Origin: Impatiens glandulifera | Lineage: Eukaryota; Streptophyta; Magnoliopsida; Ericales; Balsaminaceae | Direction of reading: 5' to 3' | DNA length: 64,000 nt | NCBI RefSeq assembly: GCF_907164915.1 | Contig: NC_061862.1 | Coordinates: 123,965,533-124,029,532, forward strand | Shown here: one piece after another, positions 3,401 to 46,140 of the stretch | How the letters are laid out: the number at the start of each line of letters is the position of its first letter | Position numbering within the stretch: the stretch's first letter is position 1 | Position numbers and translations under genes: made by a program | The notes under the pieces: generated by a model | Seen by the model: only the letters and a program-made list of their open reading frames with translations | What the model was told of the DNA's origin: nothing | Database searches by the model: none

Positions 3401-3560
3401 TTTCAGTAATAATGAAGATGAGCTGATGAGAAATAACAAAAATAATAATATTCAATGATGAGAATCACACAAAACCAATATATATAACAAAAACAACATA
3501 TATTAACCGGTAAAATACTCAAAATATATTAAATCACACATATAAAACATAATTTATATA

Positions 3561-3709
3561 TATCTACTCAAATAAAGGAAAATCAAATTATATTTACTCA
3601 AATAAAGGAAGATCAAATATATCTACTCAAATAAAGGAAGATCAAATATATCTACTCAAATAAAGAAAAATCAAATTATATCTACTCAATTAAAGAAAAA
3701 TCAAAATTA
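3561..3709. repeat. 30-bp minisatellite, five copies
   Basis: Five consecutive units of 29-31 bp, each beginning TAT(C/T)TACTCAA(A/T)TAAAG and ending in an ATCAAATTA-like tail, lie between the transposase start and the end of the Harbinger element. They may be subterminal repeats of the element. Confidence 0.8.
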
Positions 3710-4045
3710 TTTGTACTAACCCGGGAACTGAGAAGATGAGAAGCAGAACCTGTCAAAAAAACATGGAGAAGAGAAGAATAGAGAAGACGATAAAAGAGAA
3801 AACATAAAAATAATAATAATAAATAATAAATAATAATAATAATAATAATGGAGAAAGTGGACGTAGTAAAAGGGGGAGTGGAGAGAGATTGGAATGGGTT
3901 TCATTCCCCCAAATAGGGGATTGAATGATTCCCGTATACTCGGGAATAAATTTACTGTTCATCAATTAAAACCACGTACCAAACATCTATATTTATTCCG
4001 TTTCTCATTCCAGAGTACAAAAACCACGTACCAAGCACGTCCTTA

Positions 4046-31941: not shown

Positions 31942-33264
31942 TGTTAGGATCTAGGTCGCCGCTGGTGGACCGGGGGTTGAACCGGTTAGCGGTTCTCACT
32001 CGTAGGGTGGTGATTAATCCGGTTAGAGATTAACACCGGGGTTTCAATACTACACAACCTGTCACAAACCCTTGAACTAGGTTCAAGCGCGGAAGAGGTT
32101 TGCTTTCAAGTTGAAGCGGTACACGTGTATGATAGGCGAAGTCGGTTTCGGATGATGGAGATTTGAAGAATGGTGGGTCGGTTTCGGTTATCTGGATATT
32201 CGGTATGGTAAGTAGAGATTCGGTTTTGAGCGATGTTGTTAGGTTAGTCGGTTATGTAATGAAGCCAACAGAAAGTAAATAACACAACAGATTTTATGGA
32301 TGTTCGGAGATAAAACTCCTACGTCACCCCTTCCTCTCGAAACCGCGAGAAGGATATTCACTAAGGAATACAAATACAATCCGATCGAGACTTATTTTCT
32401 GCTCGATAACACTCTTACAATTCACACCGAAATTGTAGAACACACTTAGAATTTAGCACTTAGGCTTTCTTAGAATACCACACTGTTATCACTTGTAGTA
32501 AATGCTCTCAACGCTTCACTTGTCTGGCTTAATGTCTCTTAATGTCGCGCATTTACTCTTCTGCAACTGCCTCCTTTTATAGGTGAAATATGCCAACGGT
32601 CATATTTCACTTCCTTGAATCTGATTGGCTGGTCAGTGGTGCAGTGATTCAGTGTTTCAGACCTGCCGGTCTTCTCCTCAGACCTGACAGTCAATCTCAG
32701 ACCTGGCATCCTGTTCCAGACCTGCCGGTCTGTAAAAGCAAACCTGCTGGGTTTGTCTTTTTACTCAATGTAGGCACTGTCTGCTTGGACAGTTGTCTGT
32801 ACTTTGAAGATTTCCTTTCTGATTTATCCCGAAGTAGAAGGATCCGGTAGTACTGTCTTCTGCAGCCTACAGGCTTTCCTCAGACTTGCATGGATATGGA
32901 AGTATTCAGTCTGCTCCTTTGGTATCGTTCTCAACAGATACCCAAAGTGTCTTCTTGTGCAGGTCGGCCTCTTGACTTGGCCTAGGTTGGCCTCTTGACT
33001 TGGCCGAGTATCTTTTGATAGTGAAGTGACCGGACTTCTTCCGGTCTTGTGGATTGATCGGCTATTTGATGGATCTGGCTTTTAGGCTTTGGCCGATCCT
33101 TCCTCTGTTCAGTCATGTACCGAATGTGCTTGATCGGTTTGATAGCTTGACCGGTTCGGTTTCTTCACTTGGTTTTCTTTTATTCATCCGGTCCGGTTCC
33201 TTGTTCCTGCATAGGAAGTTTGTTTAAGTTAGGTTTATTTGAACCGGTATGAATTTATCTAACA
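31942..33264 (-). repeat. Copia-2 3' LTR
   Basis: 1,323 bp bounded by TGTTA...TAACA, apparently identical to the other LTR. The 86- and 64-codon plus-strand frames inside it are duplicated in the other LTR and are not genes. Confidence 0.95.
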
Positions 33265-33493
33265 ATTTCTCCCTTTTTGATTATTTTATTTAAAATTATC
33301 AAAATTATGTAAGTTTGCAACCGTAGGCCGGTTGTTTTGTTTGGTCGATTTTTGAAAAGGACTTAGAGAATTTTTCGAAAAAATTTTAAGGGAGGGTTTT
33401 TTTTTAAAAAAAAATCTCTGGTTTTGGAAGAATCTCTATAATTTATCTAACAATTTCTCCCTTTTTGATTATTTTATTTAAAATTATCAAAAT
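33252..33493 (-). repeat. Duplicated LTR-edge/polypurine segment
   Basis: A 54-bp segment covering the LTR's last 13 bases plus the purine tract (33252-33305) recurs at 33440-33493, apparently without change, and similarity (GTAATGCAAA..AGGCCGGT) continues weakly beyond. Two potential plus-strand priming sites therefore lie 188 bp apart. Confidence 0.85.
33265..33280 (-). promoter_or_regulatory. Copia-2 polypurine tract
   Basis: Read on the minus strand, AAAAAGGGAGAAAT directly abuts the 3' LTR and should prime plus-strand DNA synthesis. Confidence 0.85.
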
Positions 33494-33608
33494 CAAGTAG
33501 TAATGCAAAATAAGGCCGGTATTCAAAAATAACTTTATATATATTTATAGCGAACCGAAAAAGACAAAGCCTAAAAACTTAAGACAAATAAGAAAGGAAG
33601 GAGAGTCC

Positions 33609-36467
33609 CTATTCTGAGTCCGTGAATTCGTAGGCGCTCTTCTTTCTCTTCGGTGGTGGTGGCGGTTGCGGTTGAGAGGATTGTGGCCTTTTTGATCGAG
33701 ACCGCAACTGTTCTACAACCTCTTCCTCGATTAGGTCTTCTTGCTGCGAGGGGTCCGTTTCTGCCGGTTCAGAGATCGTGTTGAGCGTCTCGAGAATTCG
33801 AACTTTCTTACTAGCCGGCCTCTTTCTTTTCTTTGATGCCGAAGCTGAGGCTGCCGGTGCTGAAGCGGAAGTTGCTGGTGCTGAAGCGGAAGTTGCTGCC
33901 TTCTTCTTTTTCTCATTTTCTTTTGCAAAGCCCGCCAGCCGTCGCTGCTCCGTTTCTAATCGTTCGGCATCCGCTGCGACTTGTCTTGCTATTTGCTCAG
34001 CATACCCTGGATACATGCTCTCAGCCCTTCTTATTCTCTCGGCCTCTCTTTCATCTTCGGTCAGCTGAGGCGCGGTTAGCTGGGTCGCTTGCGGTGCTTC
34101 TTTGTCTCTGCCAACCTCGGCGTCCAGCCTTTCCTGAACTCTCTTAGCAACCAGAGCATCGGCCTCTATAGCCGCGGCATCCGCGGCTTCCTTAGCTTTC
34201 AGGATCTCGGCCATCTGTGCAGTAAGTGCCTTTACCTCGGCCTCGAGATCTTCGTTCTTCTTTTCCAGTGCCGAGACTCGTTCAATTGTTGGGTCGACCC
34301 GTTCGAAATCCTTCTTTAATTCCGAAGTGAGACCCTCCAGAGCTAAAATATGTTGAGCACAATTTGCTCGCTCACCGGATTCTTCCCATAGTCCGGTGGT
34401 AAGTTGCTCCAGGCGCTTTTGATGGTAATCCACAACGTCCTTTGTCACATCGGCGAACTGCTTGGCCGAATCGAATGCGTTCTCGCATCTGTCCTTGAGC
34501 GGTTGAAGCTTGGAGACGTTGTGGTCAAGTATTCGGTCATCAATCTTCTCTGATATTGAAGTGTCAAACTGCCGGAGTCGGTCCTCAATTCGCTTCGAAA
34601 CAACCACTTCAAATTTTTGAAATAGATCATCCATCCATTCCTTAGAAGGAACAAAGACGGTGGCTGCCGGCGGAGGAGTGGGAGCGGACTGCTCGGTCTG
34701 ATTAGGATCGGCTCTCTCAGCATCGGAGTCCAGTATTTCAACAACCTCAGTAGGTGCAGCTGATGTGACCGTCTCCTCCAAGGCCAGTGCCGCATTTTCT
34801 CGGATCGGTACCTCGATATCCTCTAAAGATTGTACCTCAACAGTCTTTGAAGTCGGTACCTCATCAGTTCTCGGGGTCGGTACCTCATCGGTTCTTGGAG
34901 ACGGTACCTCATCAGTTCTTGGTACCTCATCATCTGTCATTGGAGTCTCAAAGTCCCTTGGCGTCGCGGTGTCTTCCCTTGAAGTTGATGCCCAGTCCAT
35001 CTGAAAATCTTCGACGACCGGAGCGGTATACACTGGAACTTGTTTCTGAACGCAGATTGCTTCTAACCGCGCTATCTCTTGGTGTAACTCCAATTTGCCT
35101 TTTTCGAGCTTTTCTAATACTAGCGGTGCTACGGTAGACACCGATCCCTCCTCGGCATACTCTTCCTTAATCTTTCTGATACGCCTTCTTATCTGTCGAA
35201 GCTGGCTTCTCGGTATCAGCAGGCCAGTTCGGCATTGTACTTCATGAATGGTATTGGATTTTGTGAGGCTTAAGATATGGTCCTCCACTTCCTCCAATCT
35301 GTTGATGCACTTTACCGAATCGTAATCCTGTAGGATATCTTTATATTTAGAGTTGAACCGGTAATCGTGCCATTCCAAGTACAAACTGATAACGTCCACG
35401 TTTCTTTTGATAATGCCCTGAAAGATATTCTGGGCTAGTCTTTCGGCCTCGGCCTCATCGGCTTCTTCCCTGCTGAGGCCCTCATCATCGGCTCCCTCAT
35501 GATTCCCTTCCCCACCCTCGGTGGTCTCAGGATTGAAGCTTTGGTCGGCATCTGTTGGAGTCCGAGCCGAGAGATCGTCCTCATGGACCGTTTCATATTC
35601 GGTTCCCTCTGTTTCGGCTTCCTCATCAGCCCATTCCTCATCCTCGGTTTGTTGAGGTGGTTCTTCGAAGATTACCTTTTCCTTCCTCTTTCCTCCGGTG
35701 TTTTCTTTTGCCGGGGTCTTTTTCTTTGCGGCTTTCTTCTTTTGGCCACCTGAGGAACTAGAGGCCGACGGCTTTCGTGGAAGAAATTGCTTTGATCGAA
35801 TGATGCTGCTTTTTCGTATTCCAACACCGGGACCGACTTTGATCTTCAGATGTAAGAATATTTTACCGAGTTGTACAGCATACCCCCAAGACCTGTCCGA
35901 GCCCGGTCTTACCATTCCCATAAGGTTGCTGAACACCGCCCTTGCCCAGTTGATCTCCGTTCCATCCATCAGACGAAAAATCATCTTTATTTTGTCCCTG
36001 GTTAGATTACTGAAGTTTCCTCCCCTTGCCAGGATCGCCCTGGCAAAGACGTCACATGCCGGAATGAGCTCCGGTCTCAGCGTCTGTTTCTTTCCGGATG
36101 TGGTAAGCGGTTCGTTGGTTGCCGATAGAAGTTGGCAGGCTGTTCTATATGTATCCTCGTCCATCTCTGCCACAGCATCCATGCCGGTAGTTGGGAGACG
36201 CAAACTCTCGGCCACTACTGCCTCGGTAATTTCTACGTGAGAACCGCACACCGTTGCGAGGATCCTGTCATAGGAGACGGTTGCGGTTTTGAAGAACTCT
36301 TCTACCGCTTCCTTGTATATTATGTGAGGACCGTTAAGTAGATATTCCAAACCGGTCTCAATCAGCCGGTTAGCTACCTCTTTTGCCTCGGTCGTTCCAT
36401 ATTGCCGAATCTCCTCAAAATCTACTTGAGAATATAATTTGAACAATGCCGCATCACGACGACCCAT
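33609..36467 (-). CDS. Copia-2 accessory ORF 3, 952-aa nuclear-type coiled-coil protein
   Basis: Function unknown. The start ATG is at 36467. Residues about 1-215 align with the shorter accessory proteins 1 and 2: ETGLEYLLNG..IYKEAVEEFF, a LRLPTTG block and a TEINWARAVFSNL block. I think this is the domain called putative plant transposon protein, found in many plant retroelement ORFs. After it come a Lys-rich cluster (KKKAAKKKTPAK), an acidic Glu/Asp stretch, repeated TDEVP units (about residues 485-525), a long coiled coil (ALEKKNEDLEAEVKALTAQM), an Ala/Ser/Pro repeat, and further basic clusters (KKRKRPASKK and PPPPPKRKK). The basic clusters look like nuclear localisation signals. No signal peptide, membrane segment or catalytic motif is seen. 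Its own TATA box lies 106-113 bp upstream. It could be a chromatin or silencing-related factor, but that is conjecture. Confidence 0.85.
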   Translation of the reverse strand: MGRRDAALFKLYSQVDFEEIRQYGTTEAKEVANRLIETGLEYLLNGPHIIYKEAVEEFFKTATVSYDRILATVCGSHVEITEAVVAESLRLPTTGMDAVAEMDEDTYRTACQLLSATNEPLTTSGKKQTLRPELIPACDVFARAILARGGNFSNLTRDKIKMIFRLMDGTEINWARAVFSNLMGMVRPGSDRSWGYAVQLGKIFLHLKIKVGPGVGIRKSSIIRSKQFLPRKPSASSSSGGQKKKAAKKKTPAKENTGGKRKEKVIFEEPPQQTEDEEWADEEAETEGTEYETVHEDDLSARTPTDADQSFNPETTEGGEGNHEGADDEGLSREEADEAEAERLAQNIFQGIIKRNVDVISLYLEWHDYRFNSKYKDILQDYDSVKCINRLEEVEDHILSLTKSNTIHEVQCRTGLLIPRSQLRQIRRRIRKIKEEYAEEGSVSTVAPLVLEKLEKGKLELHQEIARLEAICVQKQVPVYTAPVVEDFQMDWASTSREDTATPRDFETPMTDDEVPRTDEVPSPRTDEVPTPRTDEVPTSKTVEVQSLEDIEVPIRENAALALEETVTSAAPTEVVEILDSDAERADPNQTEQSAPTPPPAATVFVPSKEWMDDLFQKFEVVVSKRIEDRLRQFDTSISEKIDDRILDHNVSKLQPLKDRCENAFDSAKQFADVTKDVVDYHQKRLEQLTTGLWEESGERANCAQHILALEGLTSELKKDFERVDPTIERVSALEKKNEDLEAEVKALTAQMAEILKAKEAADAAAIEADALVAKRVQERLDAEVGRDKEAPQATQLTAPQLTEDEREAERIRRAESMYPGYAEQIARQVAADAERLETEQRRLAGFAKENEKKKKAATSASAPATSASAPAASASASKKRKRPASKKVRILETLNTISEPAETDPSQQEDLIEEEVVEQLRSRSKRPQSSQPQPPPPPKRKKSAYEFTDSE

Positions 36468-36572
36468 GTTTTGAGGATTCTGAAAATGAAAGAAATCGGC
36501 TTCGAAGGATTTTAGAGGTGTAGAGAGAGAAAGTGAATTTGTGAGAATGAAGAGAAATATGACGAAGGCCCC

Positions 36573-36580
36573 CTTTTATA
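36573..36580 (-). promoter_or_regulatory. TATA box of accessory ORF 3
   Basis: On the minus strand CCTATAAAAGGGGGC lies about 110 bp before ATG 36467, followed by a CT-rich, ATG-free leader typical of plant mRNAs. The LTR promoter has the near-identical CCTATAAAAGGAGGC, so it may be a copy of the LTR core promoter. Confidence 0.7.
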
Positions 36581-36616
36581 GGCGCGGTTTGGAAGCCAAA
36601 CCGTCCCATCACGAAT

Positions 36617-36715
36617 GGGCGGGAAAATTTCCCTCCAAAATGAAATGTGTCAGTCTGAGCGGTTTCGTACGAAACGGTGGGCGGTTTTGTTAGGCGGGAG
36701 ATTTCCCTCCAAAAT
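36617..36715 (-). promoter_or_regulatory. Repeated E2F-like motif upstream of accessory ORF 3
   Basis: A near-identical 23-25 bp word occurs at 36617-36641 and 36692-36715. On the minus strand it reads ATTTTGGAGGGAAAT followed by TTTCCCGCC or CTCCCGCC. TTTCCCGCC matches the E2F consensus. The GGAGGGAAA part recurs, inverted, beside the TATA box of accessory ORF 2 (37778-37792). Regulation is inferred from motif and position only. Confidence 0.45.
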
Positions 36716-36967
36716 TTTGGCTATGTCATCGGTGACGCAATCTTTTCCTTGATACCGAATGACGGATCGGTTTCTAATAGTGTTTCGGCTATTTTGATTG
36801 CTCGGTGTTTAGCAGTTTTAAACATTTTATGAAACCGGATACGAACGATATGATGCCGGTTATGTTAGATAAATGCAAGAAGTAAAGAGAGGCGATCAAG
36901 ACTGAAACAGTATTTTATTATAATTGAAACCGATAGGATCGAAAGGAAGACATTTAAATAAGGATGT

Positions 36968-37675
36968 TTAACCAGTAAACACGAATTTGGAGTACTTTTC
37001 CACCACGGCATCTTTATCGAGAATGTTTGAGGGGGATGCCGGTGTGCCCGGTCCAAAATCTGGCCGGTACTTGAGGATGAACTTGCTGATGTGTGGTGCG
37101 AAGCCGAGACCTTTCTTGGTCCGCACCATTTTCCTCAAAGTTTGAAAAAGGACCGCTGCCCAATTGATGGGCGTGTGGTTGTAGATGTGGGTCATCATAT
37201 TATAGGTATTCTTTGAGAACCGCTGATTTACAGATTGGCACAGAATGGACCGAGTGACGATCTCAAGAAGTAGCTGAGTGCTTCGACCGAGGCGGGTTTT
37301 TAACCCATAGGTGTCCACCGTCTCGAAGGTTCCTAAGCAGCGGTACACATAGTAGTATTCATCAGTGCCCTCTAAGGCCGGAAAATCAGAAAACCCTTCT
37401 TTGGGCAGATTGAAGAGAGAGGCAAATTCGGCTTCATCAAGCCGGAAGGTATGATTCCTGACAGTGGTTACAATGCGGTCTCCCCAGTTGACTGCATTTC
37501 TGAAAAATTCCTTGACGTCCTCAGTCAGTATGGGACCGGATTCGCCAAGGAAGGCTTGAAGACCGGTAACAATGAGACTTTCAAACATGTGTTTCTTTGG
37601 GTGGTCGTAGTCCCATTCGGCCAAGCAGGAGCCGAAATCCACGCTTAGAAAGTTTCCCAGAGTGCGACTCGGCAT
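36968..37675 (-). CDS. Copia-2 accessory ORF 2, 235 aa
   Basis: Function unknown. The ATG is at 37675 (MPSRTLGNFL); an upstream in-frame TTG at 37717 is unlikely to be used. The whole protein is one copy of the domain also seen in accessory ORFs 1 and 3: VTGLQAFLG..EDVKEFFRNA, then FASLFNLPKEGFSD, then YNMMTHIYNHTPINWAAVLF. Length and block order match accessory ORF 1 closely (234 aa) although identity looks low, which points to an old duplication. No membrane segment, signal peptide or enzyme motif is seen. A TATA box lies about 90 bp upstream. It is an intact frame inside a very young element, so it is probably maintained. Confidence 0.85.
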   Translation of the reverse strand: MPSRTLGNFLSVDFGSCLAEWDYDHPKKHMFESLIVTGLQAFLGESGPILTEDVKEFFRNAVNWGDRIVTTVRNHTFRLDEAEFASLFNLPKEGFSDFPALEGTDEYYYVYRCLGTFETVDTYGLKTRLGRSTQLLLEIVTRSILCQSVNQRFSKNTYNMMTHIYNHTPINWAAVLFQTLRKMVRTKKGLGFAPHISKFILKYRPDFGPGTPASPSNILDKDAVVEKYSKFVFTG

Positions 37676-37761
37676 GATTGTGTTATAGAGAGAGAGGGAT
37701 TCAAGAGATGAATACAAGTGTTTTTCACTTTTGGATGTGATAAGATGAGGAGAGATTAGCT

Positions 37762-37771
37762 CTTTATATAG
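37762..37771 (-). promoter_or_regulatory. TATA box of accessory ORF 2
   Basis: On the minus strand CTATATAAAG lies about 90 bp before ATG 37675 with a CT-rich leader between. Immediately upstream is ATTTTCCCTCCAAAA (37778-37792), shared in inverted form with the accessory ORF 3 promoter. Confidence 0.7.
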
Positions 37772-37792
37772 AGTTGGTTTTGGAGGGAAAAT

Positions 37793-38204
37793 CTGTGCAT
37801 TGATTTTCAGTTTTGTCTTATTAAGAAAGAGAATCTTTTCCCTTTTAATGATACATGGGGAAGGAGCAAATCGCAGAACCCAAGGTAAGTATTGGTTGTA
37901 AAGTAACTGATTTGGTTGGATATTAAATATTCAGGTGGTTGGGGGTTAGCTCATTTAATTAGATTGTCTCATTAAGTGCATTTATCACATAAACAGCATT
38001 GATTAGATAGAAACCGAGAGTGGTGGAGATAAAGCCGAAATATGTTATACATAAATGATGGAGACTGAAAGTTGTAGAGATAACGCCGAAATATGAAAAA
38101 CATAGATAGAACCGAAATAGATAAAGCCGATATGATCGAATTCGAGTTGAGCAATAATGCATCCGGTGCGTGAAGCAAAATGACCGGATGCAAGAAGGAG
38201 TGAC
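37793..38204 (-). other. Spacer between accessory ORFs 1 and 2
   Basis: Non-coding. About 38010-38130 holds several degenerate copies of GCCGAAATATG and AGATAAAGCCGA words. The other short frames here are not convincing. It probably contains the 3' end of accessory gene 1 and the promoter of accessory gene 2. Confidence 0.5.
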
Positions 38205-38909
38205 TTAACGGTTCTCAACCCGATCGTAGAACGAGTCGATGATCTCCTTGGTAAACACCTGGGTGTGTTCCAAACCTTCGGGTGGACAGGTTGGGACCCC
38301 GAGTTCTTCAAGAAGCCGGCTGATCTGGGGAACGATCGCCACGGATCTGGTGCCGATTGTCCAAATTAGGACATCAAACAGCACCCTTGACCAGTTGACT
38401 GGCGTCCTCGTTATGATGGCCGCCATCATATTGAACGTTACCGTGCAATATGTGTAGGTGACATCCTTTCCGAGGATGCTCTTCCCTAATATGTCGTTGA
38501 GGAGCTGGTATTCAGCCCTCAAGGAACATTTGGAGCCATGGTCATCGACTGGCTCATCTGACCGGGAGAGTGAGAGAGAGACCTCAGCCTTGGTGTCGGC
38601 TGGAGGATGGAGGTCCGTGAGCCCTTGTTTGGGCAGATTGAAGCACCGAGCAAAGTCTTGCTCGGTGAAGTCGAAGAGTACACCCCCAACTTTTGACTGT
38701 ACGTGGGTGTTGAAGTAGGGTGTCCCCCGGTACACCCTGGCATTATTGAAGAATTCAATGACAGATCGGGGGTAGATGTGTTGGTTATCATCTAGAAAGT
38801 ACTGAAGGCCGGTGTCCTCCAGTTGTTTGATCATTCTGTACAGATCATAGTGATCTGTATCTGAGCATGATTCGAAGTTCACTTGGAGGATATTAGTGAA
38901 GGCAGACAT
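38205..38909 (-). CDS. Copia-2 accessory ORF 1, 234 aa
   Basis: Function unknown. ATG 38909 sits in a good plant context (CAACAATGTC). The protein is one copy of the shared accessory domain: NILQVNFESC at the start, then DTGLQYFLDD..SVIEFFNNA, then FARCFNLPKQGLTDL, then LLNDILGKSIL and FNMMAAIITRTPVNWSRVLF. These blocks line up one for one with accessory ORFs 2 and 3. From memory, similar N-termini occur in many hypothetical proteins annotated in asterid genomes. I see no catalytic motif, signal peptide or membrane segment. A TATA-like box lies about 103 bp upstream. It starts 558 bp after the pol stop, so translation from the pol message is unlikely without splicing or a separate promoter. 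Confidence 0.85.
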   Translation of the reverse strand: MSAFTNILQVNFESCSDTDHYDLYRMIKQLEDTGLQYFLDDNQHIYPRSVIEFFNNARVYRGTPYFNTHVQSKVGGVLFDFTEQDFARCFNLPKQGLTDLHPPADTKAEVSLSLSRSDEPVDDHGSKCSLRAEYQLLNDILGKSILGKDVTYTYCTVTFNMMAAIITRTPVNWSRVLFDVLIWTIGTRSVAIVPQISRLLEELGVPTCPPEGLEHTQVFTKEIIDSFYDRVENR

Positions 38910-39011
38910 TGTTGAGTTTCCTTTAGAAAAAGAGGATGCTCTTGTGAGATTCTTTGCCTTAGTGAGAGAAGGAGTGTATTGCTTTGTGAGTGGTTAAGTA
39001 AAGAGGTGCTT

Positions 39012-39021
39012 CCTTTAAATA
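39012..39021 (-). promoter_or_regulatory. TATA-like box of accessory ORF 1
   Basis: On the minus strand TATTTAAAGG lies about 103 bp before ATG 38909, followed by a CT-rich leader without upstream ATGs. The spacing matches the other two accessory genes (about 90 and 110 bp). Confidence 0.6.
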
Positions 39022-39467
39022 CTAGTATTGGGGCTATCCTATTGTCCAGGTATTGAGTGAGATGAGGCATAATAACTGCAGGGTAATAATCTTTTGCATA
39101 AAACAGGTAACTTTGCAGGCCTAGGTGTCGGTCATAGGCCTGGACTGTGAAAGATATCAAAAGATCTTCACGTCTTTTTAGGCACGACCATTTTTCTTTG
39201 AAAAAAGCAACATTTCAGAACAGATATCTATAAACATTGGTAGTTGTTCCATATCTGTGAAGTTCAAATAATCTGGGATGACCTGCTTCCGAACCGGTCA
39301 GTCATCAGTTGTTCATCCCGATGCGGTTAGTTGGTGTTTCCACCAAGTAGCCGGTCGGTTTACTCTGTCTGATGGGCTGGGCGGTTCTTCCATAGGCATC
39401 TTGAGAATTCAAAGATCAGCAGCTTAAGAAGAGCTACCTGTTTTATCTGTCGAAACCGGTTTTCCTT

Positions 39468-42400
39468 TTAAGTGTCCTTAGGAAGGATCTGACTGATGTC
39501 GGTTAAACCGAGAGTAAGTCTAAATTGAGAAAACTTAGCTTCCTGTAGAGGCTTTGTGAAGATATCGGCTACTTGTTGATCGGTGGGTACGTATTCCAGC
39601 CGGATATGCTTCAGCGTGACATGCTCTCGAATGAAATGATGCCTTATGTCGATGTGCTTGGTTCTGGAATGGAGAACCGGGTTGTATGTAATCGCAATGG
39701 CACTTGTGTTGTCACAGAAAATTGGGGACTCTTCGGCTGTGATGCCGAAATCCTTCAGTTGCTGTTGGATCCAGAGAAGTTGAGAACAGCAACTTCCGGC
39801 CGCCAAGTATTCGGCTTCTGCGGTTGATGTAGCCACGGATGTCTGCTTCTTGCTATGCCATGATACCAGTCGGTCACCAAGGAACTGACATGTTCCGCTG
39901 GTACTCTTTCTGTCAATCTTGCAGCCTGCATAGTCTGCGTCTGAGTAGCTCGTTAGATTGAATGATGAGTCCTTTGGGTACCACAGACCGACATCAGGTG
40001 TGCCCTTTAGATACTTCAGTATCCTCTTTGCGGCTGTGTAATGGGATTGCTTTGGATTTGCTTGAAATCTCCCACATACACCAACTGCAAACAGGATGTC
40101 CGGTCTACTTGCTGTCAGATATAGCAGGGAACCGATCATGCCCCGGTATGCAATCTGATCTACTGATTGCCCTTCATCATCTCTGTCCAATTTAATGGAT
40201 GAACTCATTGGAGTGGCCGCCGAGGAGCAGGTGTCCATACCGAATTTCTTTAGAAGCTCCTTGGTATATTTCGGTTGACTGATGAATGTTCCTTCCTTGA
40301 GTTGCTTAATCTGAAGACCTAGGAAGAAACTTAATTCTCCCATCATACTCATTTCAAATTTGTCAGTCATCATTTTCGAAAATTTGTCACAAAGCTTGGG
40401 GTCAGTGGAACCAAAAATGATATCATCTACATAGATTTGAACAAGTAGGATATGTTCCTTCTTTTCAAATTTGAACAAGGTCTTATCTACTGAACCGATG
40501 GTAAAATCATGCTCTAATAGGAATGCGGTTAGCGTATCATACCAGGCTCTTGGTGCTTGCTTTAGACCGTATAAAGCTTTGTTTAGTCGGTATACATGGT
40601 TTGGAAGTGCAGCGTTCTTGAAGCCGGGTGGCTGTTCAACATACACTTCCTCTCGTATATCACCGTTCAAAAATGCACTTTTAACATCCATTTGAAAAAC
40701 TTTGAAATTTTTGAAAGCAGCAAATGCAAGAAAGATCCTAATGGCTTCAATCCTGGCTACAGGAGCAAATGACTCTTCAAAGTCAATGCCTTCTTCCTGT
40801 TTGTAGCCTTGAGCCACTAATCTGGCTTTGTTCCTCGTGACCAAACCGTCCTCATTGAGTTTGTTTCTGAATACCCATCTTGTTCCTATGACCGATTTAT
40901 CTTTCGGTCTGGGAACTAAGTACCAGACCTTACTACTCTCGAACTGGTTTAGTTCTTCTTGCATTCCCAAGATCCAGTCCGGATCTGACAATGCTTCATC
41001 TATTCTTTTCGGTTCAATCTGGGATATAAAAGCAGAGTTAAAATATCCTTCCAGAAGTTGACTCCTAGTTCGAACAGGTTCTGAAGGGTCACCTATAATT
41101 TGCTCAGGAGGATGTTTACTGTTTCTTCTGAGATTCAGTTCAAGGGTGTCTACCAAGTTACCGTTTAATTGATCAAGGCTAGACATGTCGGTAGGCTGAC
41201 CAAGATTGTCAGACCGACCGGCTTCCTCGGGTTGGACCGAAGTGTCAGCTTCCTGCTGTGAAACAGCTTGATCCGGCAGGGTATCAATATTACCCATTAG
41301 GTCATGGACAAACCCCCTGAAGACCGGGGTCTCATCTTCGCTATCAGAATGAATATCGTTATTTTCCAGTCTGTTATGTAGATCGAAGCATGAGGCAGTG
41401 TTGCTTTCAACCGATTCATCGAAAACAACGTGAATTGTTTCCTCCATGGTTGCAGTTCTATTGTTATACACTCTATATGCTTTGCTTACTGAAGAGTATC
41501 CCAGCATAATGCCGGTATCGGTCTTTGCATCAAAAGCAGTAAGTTGGGTTTTACCATTATTATGAATATAACATTTACAACCGAAAATCCTGAGGTATTT
41601 AAGTTTAGGAACTCTGTTAAAATAAACCTCATACGGTGTTTTGTTGTGAAATCTGTTAATCAAAGACCGGTTTTGTGTATGACATGCAGTGTTGATAGCT
41701 TCAGCCCAATATTTCTGAGCAATGCCGGAGTCGGCTATCATGGACCGTGCGGCTTCCTTGAGAGTCCGGTTTCTTCTCTCGGCCAGGCCGTTTTGTTGAG
41801 GAGTCCTGGCACTAGACAACTCGTGTCTAATGCCGGATTCATCAAGATATGCAGTTAATGTGCTATTAGTAAATTCGGTACCTCTATCGCTTCGAATGCA
41901 GTTTATACGAGTTGATTTTTCATTTTGCAGACGCTTAAGGAGGTTAATTAGGTTTGATACCGTTTCACGTTTAGATGGTAAGAATATTACCCATGTATAT
42001 CTAGAGTAATCATCAATAACTACCATGGTGTAAAGCATACCTCCTAGACTAATGACCTGAATCGGTCCAAATAAATCCATGTGAAGAAGATCTAGGCATC
42101 GGCTAGATTGGAGATTTCCTTTGCTCTCAAATGATGACCTAGTTTGTTTACCCATCTGGCATGCTGAACAAACCTTATCCTGGTTAAATACTATATCTGG
42201 GATGCCTTCAACTAGTTTCTTACCACGAATGTAGTTTAAGGTTTTCATGTTTAGATGGTTTAATCTTTTGTGCCATAGCCAGGTTTGATCAGTTTTAGCT
42301 ATCATGCATATAGGGTGTTCTACTCTAGTTTTCCAGTCTACCTTGTAGATGTTACCTATCCTATTTCCGGTTAGTAGCACTATTCCTTGAGAGTTCTTAA

Positions 42401-42695
42401 CTAAGCATGCATGTTTAAGGAATTCTACTGTGTATCCGGCATCACACATCTGACTGATGCTAAGTAGATTAAAACGTAGGTTTTCAACTAGAAGTACATT
42501 ATCAATAGTTAGGTTACCATGGACAATCTTACCCTTGCCCACGGTTTTACCTTTAGAGTTGTCACCGAAGGTGATTGGAGCACCGGTTACTGATCTGATG
42601 TCGGTTAGCAGATTGCTATTTCCGGTCATGTGTCTGGAGCAACCGCTGTCCAAGAACCATTCAGAGTTTCCTAACCGTTTCTTTGGATCCTGCAA
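39468..42695 (-). CDS. Copia-2 pol polyprotein, about 1,075 aa, intact
   Basis: Open from about 42698. It has no ATG near its start (the first codons read TTT TTG CAG), so translation must be linked to gag by some recoding or RNA processing. Domains in order: protease with [10 protein letters not shown] at residues 17-26, the GAG-pre-integrase HHCC region ([12 protein letters not shown] to CSACQMGKQ), integrase with Asp in HMDLFGP, Asp in RSDRGTEF and Glu in [10 protein letters not shown], reverse transcriptase with YVDD near residue 752, and RNase H with YSDADYAGC and TSTAEAEY. All catalytic residues are present with no stop. Read with the gag ORF upstream, this is a complete Copia enzyme set. 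Confidence 0.93.
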
Positions 42696-42729
42696 AAATT
42701 ACATATTTACAACTATTTGGTACCCACAT

Positions 42730-44574
42730 TTACTTGGGTCCACATGCGATTAGTCCCTTAGGTACCCAAACCTTGATAAACCGAACGGTCTTCTTTGCTA
42801 AAGTTTCAACTGTTCTCCTTACACTTGGTCTGGTGTATTTCGGTTTCCCTACAGATGACCTAAATGATGATGGTCTTTGGTTTGATGATCTATAGGTTGA
42901 CCTACGTGGTTCAGGGAAGTCTTTCTTATATTTGAGGATTTCTGCTTTCCTTTTCTCAAGGTCAAGCCATGAATCGGTTGGGCCAACATAGTCGTACTTT
43001 GTCTTTTCTTCCCTATAATACGCGGTCTCCTCTTCTTCAGCTGTACAGGTGCTCTTTAGGAATTTTATAAAGGGGATGTTTCCTTTTGTAAGCTTTGCTT
43101 TCCATATGGTTTTTCGGTTTTTAGATCTGTTCTCTGTGTATCCTAGGCCATTCTTACAACGTGGATGCCTGTATTCTTTATTCAGGTTCTTTACTATATT
43201 GCTAGATCTCCTATAGGCGGCCATCGTGTATTCAAAGCGGGCATTCTCTCTTTCGGTTAGTTCTCTAGTCGGCTCACTAGGTTGTTCGATGTTAAGGTCT
43301 AATTCGGTTTCTAGGGTATGAGTATCATCAGGTTGTATAGCTTCCGGTTCGGTTATGATAGGTACCTCTGGTTCTACTGGGATCGGTCCTATGGGATCGG
43401 CTTTAAGGTTGATATGCTTAGGTAGCATGGTCAGTAGGTTCTTATATTCCTCTACCATGTCATTCAATGCTTCATATAGTTCATCTTTAGTAAATTCATC
43501 ACAGGGAGAGTCAAATACCTGTTCCTCATTTGCCATGAGACATGTGAGGTCATCGTCACTGTCACTGTGAGCCCATAGACTTCCTCCATCGTCGGCTATC
43601 AATGCTTTTGGTACTTCACTTCCTTCACCGGTTTGTTGATAGTTCCGATTATTTTGGTAGTCTGGTTTCTGGGTATCTCTCCTTGGTTTCCTGCACTCCC
43701 ACTTAAAATGTCCCATACAGTTACAGTTATAACATCTTATATTGGATTTGTCACCATAGTAGTTGTTTGTCGGTTGGCTCCTTTTCATGAACCTCCCAAA
43801 CTTCTGTGCAAGCATGGCCATGGCGTCCTCAGTAAACTGTTCGGCGGTTCTGATCGGTGCAGGTGCAGGAGTCGGTACCGGTGCAGATGTAGATATAGAA
43901 ACAGGAGCAGGTGCAGCCGGTTCCGTAGATGTGAACAGTGCTCTAGTTGACGTTGAGGCCGAGACTTCCTCTTCAGTTCTGGAGTTCATCTCGAACTCAT
44001 AAGCCTTGAGATCTTCGAATACATCGTATAATTTCATCTTACGTAGGCTCTTTGATTCTCTCATGACCATTGTCTTTATATCCCAGGCACTTGGAAGAGA
44101 CCTTAAAACCTTCATGATGACCTCTTTGTTGTCATACTTCTTACCCAGATTTGCTAACTCATCTAATACACCAGTGAACCGGTCACTGTATTCTTTCATA
44201 GTTTCCCCTGGTTTCATTTTGATGCTTTCAAACCTCTGTGTGGCCACCATTATCTTGTTCTCTTTGGTTCTTTCATTTCCCTCAAAAATCTGAATGACCG
44301 TGTTCCAAGTCTCCTTTGCAGTTTTGCAATCTCTGATCTTGCAGTATGTATTTCTGTCCACGCTGTTGGAGATCCGGTTTCTTGCATGGTTGTCCAGATT
44401 GTTCCTTCTCCTATCATCAGCTGTCCATTCTTTTCTGTCTTTATCAATGACTATCGGTCCTTCGGTTAGAACGGATTCCATTTCATCATCCAAGGTGACT
44501 AGATGCAGGTGCATGCGTGCCTTCCAGTTGGCAAAGTCATCACCTTCTAGCATTGGAGGCCTATCTTGATACAT
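42730..44574 (-). CDS. Copia-2 gag, 614 aa
   Basis: ATG 44574 lies just after the primer-binding site. Residues about 10-200 form the UBN2/Retrotran_gag capsid-like domain (GDDFANWKARMHLHL near the start, then MKEYSDRFTGVLDEL). An Ala/Pro/Thr-rich linker follows, then one CCHC knuckle, CYNCNCMGHFKWEC. A long acidic C-terminal extension precedes basic, Arg-rich and Ser-rich sequence ending VWVPKGLIACGPK. A long gag tail after the knuckle is common in Sirevirus-like Copia elements. The frame ends at TAA (42730-42732), one frame away from pol. Confidence 0.93.
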   Translation of the reverse strand: MYQDRPPMLEGDDFANWKARMHLHLVTLDDEMESVLTEGPIVIDKDRKEWTADDRRRNNLDNHARNRISNSVDRNTYCKIRDCKTAKETWNTVIQIFEGNERTKENKIMVATQRFESIKMKPGETMKEYSDRFTGVLDELANLGKKYDNKEVIMKVLRSLPSAWDIKTMVMRESKSLRKMKLYDVFEDLKAYEFEMNSRTEEEVSASTSTRALFTSTEPAAPAPVSISTSAPVPTPAPAPIRTAEQFTEDAMAMLAQKFGRFMKRSQPTNNYYGDKSNIRCYNCNCMGHFKWECRKPRRDTQKPDYQNNRNYQQTGEGSEVPKALIADDGGSLWAHSDSDDDLTCLMANEEQVFDSPCDEFTKDELYEALNDMVEEYKNLLTMLPKHINLKADPIGPIPVEPEVPIITEPEAIQPDDTHTLETELDLNIEQPSEPTRELTERENARFEYTMAAYRRSSNIVKNLNKEYRHPRCKNGLGYTENRSKNRKTIWKAKLTKGNIPFIKFLKSTCTAEEEETAYYREEKTKYDYVGPTDSWLDLEKRKAEILKYKKDFPEPRRSTYRSSNQRPSSFRSSVGKPKYTRPSVRRTVETLAKKTVRFIKVWVPKGLIACGPK

Positions 44575-44599
44575 GTCTGCTTGAGTATTGAAACTAACT

Positions 44600-44611
44600 G
44601 CTCTGATACCA
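44600..44611 (-). promoter_or_regulatory. Copia-2 primer-binding site
   Basis: The minus strand reads TGGTATCAGAGC, complementary to initiator methionine tRNA, two bases inside the 5' LTR. Confidence 0.93.
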
Positions 44612-45245
44612 ATTGTTAGGATCTAGGTCGCCGCTGGTGGACCGGGGGTTGAACCGGTTAGCGGTTCTCACTCGTAGGGTGGTGATTAATCCGGTTAGAG
44701 ATTAACACCGGGGTTTCAATACTACACAACCTGTCACAAACCCTTGAACTAGGTTCAAGCGCGGAAGAGGTTTGCTTTCAAGTTGAAGCGGTACACGTGT
44801 ATGATAGGCGAAGTCGGTTTCGGATGATGGAGATTTGAAGAATGGTGGGTCGGTTTCGGTTATCTGGATATTCGGTATGGTAAGTAGAGATTCGGTTTTG
44901 AGCGATGTTGTTAGGTTAGTCGGTTATGTAATGAAGCCAACAGAAAGTAAATAACACAACAGATTTTATGGATGTTCGGAGATAAAACTCCTACGTCACC
45001 CCTTCCTCTCGAAACCGCGAGAAGGATATTCACTAAGGAATACAAATACAATCCGATCGAGACTTATTTTCTGCTCGATAACACTCTTACAATTCACACC
45101 GAAATTGTAGAACACACTTAGAATTTAGCACTTAGGCTTTCTTAGAATACCACACTGTTATCACTTGTAGTAAATGCTCTCAACGCTTCACTTGTCTGGC
45201 TTAATGTCTCTTAATGTCGCGCATTTACTCTTCTGCAACTGCCTC

Positions 45246-45253
45246 CTTTTATA
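45246..45253 (-). promoter_or_regulatory. Copia-2 LTR core promoter
   Basis: TATAAAAG on the minus strand within CCTATAAAAGGAGGC. Transcription would start roughly 25-35 bp downstream, near 45215-45225, leaving about 600 bp of R-U5. Confidence 0.7.
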
Positions 45254-45329
45254 GGTGAAATATGCCAACGGTCATATTTCACTTCCTTGAATCTGATTGG
45301 CTGGTCAGTGGTGCAGTGATTCAGTGTTT

Positions 45330-45396
45330 CAGACCTGCCGGTCTTCTCCTCAGACCTGACAGTCAATCTCAGACCTGGCATCCTGTTCCAGACCTG
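45330..45396 (-). promoter_or_regulatory. Four phased CAGGTCTG repeats in U3
   Basis: CAGGTCTG (minus strand) recurs at 45330, 45351, 45370 and 45389, spacings of 21, 19 and 19 bp, beginning about 77 bp upstream of the TATA box. Three of the four are preceded by the same GGC or TG(C/T) context. Short direct repeats at this position act as enhancers in tobacco Tnt1. Here that role is inferred. Confidence 0.55.
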
Positions 45397-46140
45397 CCGG
45401 TCTGTAAAAGCAAACCTGCTGGGTTTGTCTTTTTACTCAATGTAGGCACTGTCTGCTTGGACAGTTGTCTGTACTTTGAAGATTTCCTTTCTGATTTATC
45501 CCGAAGTAGAAGGATCCGGTAGTACTGTCTTCTGCAGCCTACAGGCTTTCCTCAGACTTGCATGGATATGGAAGTATTCAGTCTGCTCCTTTGGTATCGT
45601 TCTCAACAGATACCCAAAGTGTCTTCTTGTGCAGGTCGGCCTCTTGACTTGGCCTAGGTTGGCCTCTTGACTTGGCCGAGTATCTTTTGATAGTGAAGTG
45701 ACCGGACTTCTTCCGGTCTTGTGGATTGATCGGCTATTTGATGGATCTGGCTTTTAGGCTTTGGCCGATCCTTCCTCTGTTCAGTCATGTACCGAATGTG
45801 CTTGATCGGTTTGATAGCTTGACCGGTTCGGTTTCTTCACTTGGTTTTCTTTTATTCATCCGGTCCGGTTCCTTGTTCCTGCATAGGAAGTTTGTTTAAG
45901 TTAGGTTTATTTGAACCGGTATGAATTTATCTAACAATATTCATAATTATGTGTCTAGGTTCGTCATTGTACGATACAGGAAAAACGTAAAATTTATGAA
46001 GTTCAAACACACTTGTAGATATGAGAATGGATCGAGAGGGTATTTAAAAAGATTTTATTGTGATTGGTGATGAATATGTTAATACATATTCCTAATCAAA
46101 TTAATGATAAGAAGATTAAATATTAATTCTTTGTTTAAGA

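Follow-up and report, generated by a model that had tools for sequence, protein, structure and literature searches.

In SIRE (Maximus) elements of the Sirevirus group of Copia retrotransposons, a single extra forward open reading frame (ORF), the env-like eORF-3'F, has been described, and bean and other legume relatives of SIRE carry one env-like ORF apiece according to the available passages of PMC4093653. PF20167 (Transposase_32), a Pfam family related to PF03078 of Athila ORF1, has been reported in an accessory ORF of the Gypsy element Athila (excerpts of PMC11728184), and gene23 of the maize Gypsy element Grande is an accessory gene with its own promoter and a nuclear product (excerpts of PMC7264820). 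Here we analyze a 64,000-nucleotide stretch of Impatiens glandulifera DNA (contig NC_061862.1, positions 123,965,533 to 124,029,532; the window), which holds on its minus strand what we classify as a young Sirevirus-like Copia retrotransposon with three related ORFs (ORF1, ORF2 and ORF3) after pol. Our reading of the sequences, to which we give a probability of roughly 0.6, is that these are three selected, modular accessory genes, each with a putative promoter of its own.

The window element resembles SIRE in its Copia gag and pol, an exact 16-base junction of long terminal repeat (LTR) and primer-binding site (PBS), LTRs of ~ 1.3 kb, a long 3' region with sense ORFs, and more than one polypurine tract. 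It differs in carrying three paralogous ORFs rather than one and in having no copy of the octamer AGGGGGAG. With the Athila accessory ORF it shares the Pfam family, the sense orientation and the position after pol, although Athila belongs to another superfamily (Ty3/gypsy) and has one such ORF. Grande gene23, likened to the window locus by description, is also an accessory gene after pol with its own promoter (a candidate one in the window) and a probable nuclear product (ORF3), but it is a single antisense gene, whereas the three window ORFs are sense. The anti-silencing ORFs of VANDAL elements, which are DNA transposons, offer an analogy of proposed role alone (excerpts of PMC11728184). Within the titles, abstract beginnings and passages of open-licence PMC articles, we found neither a retrotransposon whose accessory ORFs are tandem paralogues, nor PF20167 in any Copia element, nor a Copia element with a trio of paralogous accessory genes that undergo exchange. 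As a caveat, a passage of PMC11728184 mentions that plant elements may carry three additional 3' ORFs for env-like proteins, and those three may or may not be related to one another.

Kinship, distribution and selection of the accessory genes

A preliminary description of the locus, made from the DNA letters, placed ORFs of 234, 235 and 952 amino acids (aa) on the minus strand after pol, and they were found as stated (Table 1). All three lie downstream of gag and pol, and 500-558 nt of non-coding sequence stand in front of each. The blocks that the description saw in common reflect true homology. In BLASTP, with E values for single comparisons, ORF1 matched ORF2 at 33% identity (E 1e-28), ORF2 matched residues 1-240 of ORF3 (ORF3N) at 30% (E 5e-21), and ORF1 matched ORF3N at 25% (E 6e-19), and thus no pair of the three proteins lacked a significant match. 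The best Pfam match of each window ORF was PF20167 (ORF1, 20.6 bits, E 4.5e-4; ORF2, 28.6 bits, E 1.6e-6; ORF3, 20.4 bits, E 5e-4), with all three scores under the 45-bit cut-off for the family.

The genome searched was one assembly of 654 Mb in 1110 contigs. We read 27 elements, namely the window element and 26 loci that were all picked via an ORF match: 20 by ORF1 (L013-L032), a single one, L036, from the listings for ORF2 and for ORF3, and five by PF20167 (L033, L034, L035, L037 and L038). These fall into a close group (the window, L013-L032 and L036; 22 elements), a middle group (L035, L037 and L038) and a most distant group (L033 and L034). In a profile search of the genome, PF20167 matches in the ORF3N place scored above the cut-off in the middle group (53.0, 53.2 and 50.6 bits in L035, L037 and L038) and under it in L033 (42.7 bits) and L034 (42.2 bits). 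The family was matched by 9/11 domain sequences, which came from five loci plus the window, and every other family gave E no better than 0.04. On these sequence comparisons, ORF1, ORF2 and ORF3 are confirmed as paralogues related to PF20167.

The order ORF1-ORF2-ORF3 was the same in all 27 elements, each place being matched best by the window ORF of equal position. Identity to the window in the middle group was 53-61% for ORF1, 45-46% for ORF2 and 44-48% for ORF3N, and in the most distant group 34%, 31-33% and 36%, respectively; pol of these five elements was 83-89% identical over the part covered. A tree was built from 39 domains, taken from 13 of the 27 elements, and in it the sequences of each ORF position grouped together, with ultrafast bootstrap support of 59 for ORF1, 99 for ORF2 and 100 for ORF3N (35, 100 and 100 when alignment and model were changed). 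Separate triplications were rejected both for the L033/L034 subfamily and for the L035/L037/L038 subfamily when each was forced into a single clade (p-AU, from the approximately unbiased [AU] test, 1.2e-10 and 1.5e-89). Because the order is constant, the tree groups follow position and the forced clades are rejected, the triplication predates the split of the subfamilies; as judged from these sequences, it is ancestral and older than the window element. One ancestral gene of the PF20167 family would have undergone two ancient duplications, giving three genes in a cassette that follows pol and precedes the 3' LTR. The preliminary description had proposed one gene doubled twice inside the element. 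Common origin stands on both BLASTP and the tree, whereas the duplications are old, since the order is kept even in relatives 31-36% identical. Its further proposal, a gain of some 700 residues by the last copy, is no better supported than the converse: ORF3 is already 947 aa in L033 and 950 aa in L034, and the short ORF1 and ORF2 may therefore equally have lost a tail.

Selection was measured as the ratio of nonsynonymous to synonymous divergence (dN/dS, NG86) between the window and the 21 other close copies, in pairs that share branches and so are not independent. The ratio was 0.07-0.16 for ORF1, 0.02-0.21 for ORF2 (undefined in two comparisons with dS 0), 0.06-0.25 for ORF3N, 0.20-0.31 for the ORF3 tail and 0.01-0.05 for pol. 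L033 against L034, a separate pair, gave 0.21 for ORF1, 0.14 for ORF2 and 0.06 for ORF3N. Purifying selection acts on each of the three ORFs, and ratios far below 1 support the earlier suggestion that they are useful to the element. It is highly improbable that the ORFs are passengers, open merely through the youth of the element: its identical LTRs do leave little time for decay since insertion, but the ratios stay far below 1 even where synonymous divergence is 0.5-1.8, and gene order and lengths are retained across subfamilies. Against distant elements, synonymous sites were saturated in most comparisons, pol included, and dN was 0.085-0.108 for pol and 0.30-0.68 for the accessory ORFs. The accessory proteins may either diverge several-fold faster than pol or predate the pol they travel with.

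Among close elements, ORF1 and ORF2 were open in 22/22 and ORF3 was open over at least 928 codons in 18/22, with pol interrupted in several copies. Among the five distant elements, matched pieces with one internal stop each were seen in L037 (all three ORFs, with ORF1 split as well), L035 (ORF1 and ORF2) and L038 (ORF2). Across the genome, a preponderance of copies without intact ORFs was not found: the match was free of stops at 137 (ORF1), 147 (ORF2) and 146 (ORF3N) of 150 scored places per ORF, which are the best of ~ 18,000 first-look candidates each and hence skewed to intact copies.

Some further features of these copies were noted. ORF3 differs slightly in length among copies, and at 34808-34922 it contains a 24-nt tandem repeat encoding a recurrent VPxxRTDE-like 8-residue unit. 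One ORF3N place (G000:C6:17286859-17287569) sits in an open frame of 3215 codons, compared with the usual ~ 950. At 64-528 of L029, a partial inverted ORF1 stands directly ahead of a pol fragment, like a head-to-head joining of two copies. In L024, L025 and L026 (~ 3554-4045, sense), an extra open frame of 158-164 codons, probably due to chance, covers the ORF1 end and the first spacer in another frame.

Different histories of neighbouring genes

A pair of elements is expected to show similar synonymous divergence over its full length. Between the window and L013, divergence was 0.088 in pol, 0.50 in ORF1, 0 in ORF2 and 0.075 in ORF3N. The corresponding values were 0.114, 0.047, 1.84 and 0.085 for L028 against L013, and 0.107, 1.52, 0.26 and 0.107 for L036 against L013. 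Sliding identity located the main steps close to gene borders. In the window the step began at the pol stop and ended at the ORF1 stop; in L028 it covered the first spacer, ORF2 and most of the second spacer; and in L036 it ran from the pol stop to the ORF2 start. In AU tests on the 22 close elements, the tree of any one among pol, ORF1, ORF2, ORF3N and the ORF3 tail was rejected by each of the remaining four (p-AU at most 1.7e-4). Genes that lie next to each other in an element differ in their histories.

The block of linker and ORF1 in the window is flanked by pol and ORF2 sequences 96-100% identical to copies such as L013, and among the 40 candidates scored, out of 2353, nothing in the rest of the assembly exceeded 89% identity to the block itself. 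At that sensitivity its donor is consequently not represented, and it may be missing, extinct or outside the assembly. Modules would have been exchanged between co-existing lineages, and by analogy the most probable mechanism is a switch of template in the course of reverse transcription; frequent recombination among family members is reported for transposition bursts of Arabidopsis Onsen (excerpts of PMC5668417). Gene conversion among integrated copies, or assembly error, is an unlikely source of the mosaicism. The evidence does come from a single assembly of 1110 contigs, but the pattern is repeated in many elements and sets five genes apart, no sequence close to the window ORF1 block was seen in the assembly from which it could have been mis-joined (at the sensitivity given above), and recombination at a high rate is reported for the Onsen bursts.

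Candidate promoters and possible role

TATA boxes and pyrimidine patches are common in plant core promoters (excerpts of PMC1832190). At -130..-60 from the start codon, TATAWAW or TATWWAA occurred before ORF1 in 26/27 elements, before ORF2 in 25/27 and before ORF3 in 27/27, the start codon being estimated from the match for ORF2 of L037 and ORF3 of L038. In shuffled upstream sequences, 0.33-1.04 (TATAWAW) and 0.41-1.23 (TATWWAA) occurrences were expected among the 22 close copies, and TATA-like words were rare in other distance bins save -270..-200 of ORF2 and a few distant elements. Strict TATAWAW preceded ORF3 in 21/22 close, 3/3 middle and 2/2 most distant elements. A CTCTC patch lay within 90 nt of the start in 22/22, 21/22 and 22/22 close copies for ORF1, ORF2 and ORF3 (expected 3.7, 7.0 and 3.8), in 1/3, 3/3 and 3/3 middle copies, and in 2/2 most distant copies for each.

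The upstream region of ORF3 also holds words resembling what we take to be the E2F consensus. TTTSSCGC was present at -300..-100 in 15/22 close, 2/3 middle and 2/2 most distant elements (expected 0.66, 0.13 and 0.08), and before ORF1 and ORF2 in 0/27 each. Likewise, GGAGGGAAA was found upstream of ORF3 in 22/22, 2/3 and 2/2 elements of these groups and before neither ORF1 nor ORF2. The window LTR carries a TATA box of its own, CACCTATAAAAGG, and no strict E2F word.

These words point to an internal core promoter, with TATA-like box and pyrimidine patch, for each accessory gene. Promoter and gene would then form one module, since each gene would have its own promoter, and the E2F-like words suggest that the ORF3 product may be made mainly in dividing cells. 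An internal promoter for the Sirevirus env gene has been hypothesized and not conclusively identified (excerpts of PMC2829016). Alternatively, the ORFs might be expressed from the LTR promoter via splicing, read-through or reinitiation, with the TATA-like words reflecting an AT-rich leader. For env-like genes in other plant elements, expression of this kind has been described or predicted, with splice acceptors predicted for the env genes of Bagy2 and Athila and stop suppression for SIRE1 (excerpts of PMC2829016). By eye, the window and L013 have an acceptor-like TTTTCAG ahead of ORF3, and several elements have CTAAG ahead of ORF1. However, L023 and L025 are among the elements that have lost the TTTTCAG (again by eye), and the TATA-like words hold a constant distance to the start codon, so that expression from the LTR seems to us the less probable course, though one to be taken seriously.

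Several observations weigh against three selected, modular genes with promoters of their own. A survey of relatives for one, two or three ORFs, as had been suggested, gave three in 27/27, but every locus was picked through an ORF; elements lacking the cassette are thus invisible, and the count does not give their share. L030, L031 and L032 have a broken ORF3, and that of L029 is short (829 codons). The unity of the ORF1 group is weakly supported (59 and 35), and the tree program warns of long branches. Smaller identity dips in the linker of L028 and within ORF3 place borders elsewhere than at genes alone. In 15/22 close copies, ORF2 has TATA-like words at -270..-200 as well, while strict TATAWAW is found before ORF1 in 0/22 close copies, where TATTTAA stands instead, and before ORF2 in 16/22 close and 0/3 middle copies. 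The looser E2F word WTTSSCSS precedes ORF3 in 16/22 close copies against 6.96 expected, a ~ 2-fold excess. Since the close copies nearly replicate one another, the real sample for the promoter words is three lineages. A fuller picture, of a multi-gene accessory locus whose three diverged paralogues have private promoters (that of ORF3 tied to S phase via E2F) and reassort between co-existing lineages as promoter-plus-gene modules, is plausible but falls somewhat short of even odds.

The highest Kyte-Doolittle mean over 19 residues was 1.55 in the accessory proteins tested, compared with 1.64 in pol on the same crude scale. Runs of at least four K/R residues occurred in 7/7 open ORF3 proteins tested, including those of L033 and L034, and ORF3 is, by its composition, probably a nuclear protein. 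In the absence of a clear membrane-type stretch and given the K/R runs of ORF3, a nuclear, regulatory or anti-silencing role is favored over an envelope. Sense ORFs after pol in Sirevirus and Athila are customarily named env-like (excerpts of PMC7264820 and PMC2829016), but env-like membrane proteins for cell-to-cell movement are very unlikely here, with a hydropathy maximum under that of non-membrane pol and an ORF3 that is acidic with basic clusters. The three proteins would instead act on the element's own expression or silencing. Composition and evolutionary pattern (architecture kept, sequence fast, units exchanged) suggest this role, and control of transcription or of silencing is offered tentatively, as the weakest step of the explanation.

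Searches of 5.8 billion proteins gave no match for ORF2 (160 candidates) or for an 11-row domain alignment (6436 candidates), which is weak evidence, since a match had to share 5-residue words and be similar in length. The same set contains plant relatives of pol, with a top identity of 68% and with 57% in Cuscuta europaea and 51% in Centaurea solstitialis among the best 120 listed. Comparison with solved structures gave a best E of 0.77, as expected by chance, and an AlphaFold model of ORF2 from a three-row alignment was unusable (mean predicted local distance difference test score [pLDDT] 46).

The element and its significance

The 1323-bp LTRs are 100% alike and the target site duplication (TSD) ATATT is intact on both sides, in keeping with the youth that the preliminary description ascribed to the element. 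Its gag is of the copia type (Retrotran_gag_2), and in pol the Pfam domain rve (202-299) precedes RVT_2 (589-831); by this domain order the element belongs to the Ty1/copia superfamily. The polypurine tract AAAGGGAGAAAT is present twice near the 3' LTR at a spacing of 188 nt, and the published mean for Sirevirus is four tracts per element (excerpts of PMC2829016). The tract and the first LTR bases are doubled (33252-33332 and 33440-33520) 188 nt upstream of the 3' LTR. CCCCC was found near the LTR end, the place of the polyC-rich integrase signal of Sirevirus, for which a 19-base motif has been published. The polypurine octamer AGGGGGAG is absent from the whole sense strand of the element, and we therefore write Sirevirus-like rather than Sirevirus member. 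At 42695-42733, gag stops at 42730 and pol lies in a different frame that is open only past a stop near 42700; with no ATG nearby, the first start-like codon is the TTG at 42695. Expression of pol would therefore need an extra step, such as recoding or splicing.

Table 1 Features of the retrotransposon in the window (positions of the window)
Feature	Position	Strand	Remarks
Whole element	31942..45936	-	LTR retrotransposon, TSD ATATT at both ends
3' LTR	31942-33264	-	1323 bp, identical to 5' LTR
Terminal polypurine tract	33265..33276	-	adjoins 3' LTR; second copy 33453-33464
Accessory ORF3	33609..36467	-	952 aa; PF20167-related N-terminal domain 35748-36467, then acidic, coiled-coil-like, basic tail with K/R clusters
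TATA box TATAAAA upstream of ORF3	36574..36580	-	putative function
E2F-like word TTTCCCGC upstream of ORF3	36619..36626	-	presumed consensus, putative function
Accessory ORF2	36968..37675 (from ATG)	-	235 aa, PF20167-related
TATA-like word TATATAA upstream of ORF2	37764..37770	-	putative function
Accessory ORF1	38205..38909	-	234 aa, PF20167-related
Linker and ORF1 block	38205..39467	-	own history; best match elsewhere 89% among those scored
TATA-like word TATTTAA upstream of ORF1	39015..39021	-	putative function
pol ORF	39468..42695	-	1075 codons counted from first TTG; integrase before reverse transcriptase
gag ORF	42730..44574	-	614 aa, Pfam Retrotran_gag_2
5' LTR/PBS junction	44600..44615	-	16-base Sirevirus junction CA/ATTGG/TATCAGAGC, exact match
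5' LTR	44614-45936	-	1323 bp, identical to 3' LTR

A large survey doubted any function of the extra ORFs of SIRE elements, as so little sequence is shared among them (excerpts of PMC6317226). Related genes in fixed order under purifying selection make the role of extra ORFs in plant LTR retrotransposons testable, aided by 150 or more scored places for each gene within a single genome, by single genes that have been exchanged in nature, and by candidate promoters whose positions are defined. If the fuller picture above is true, the cassette would correspond in function, though not by ancestry, to the accessory genes of complex retroviruses; this plant counterpart would derive from one duplicated family of plant retroelement genes.

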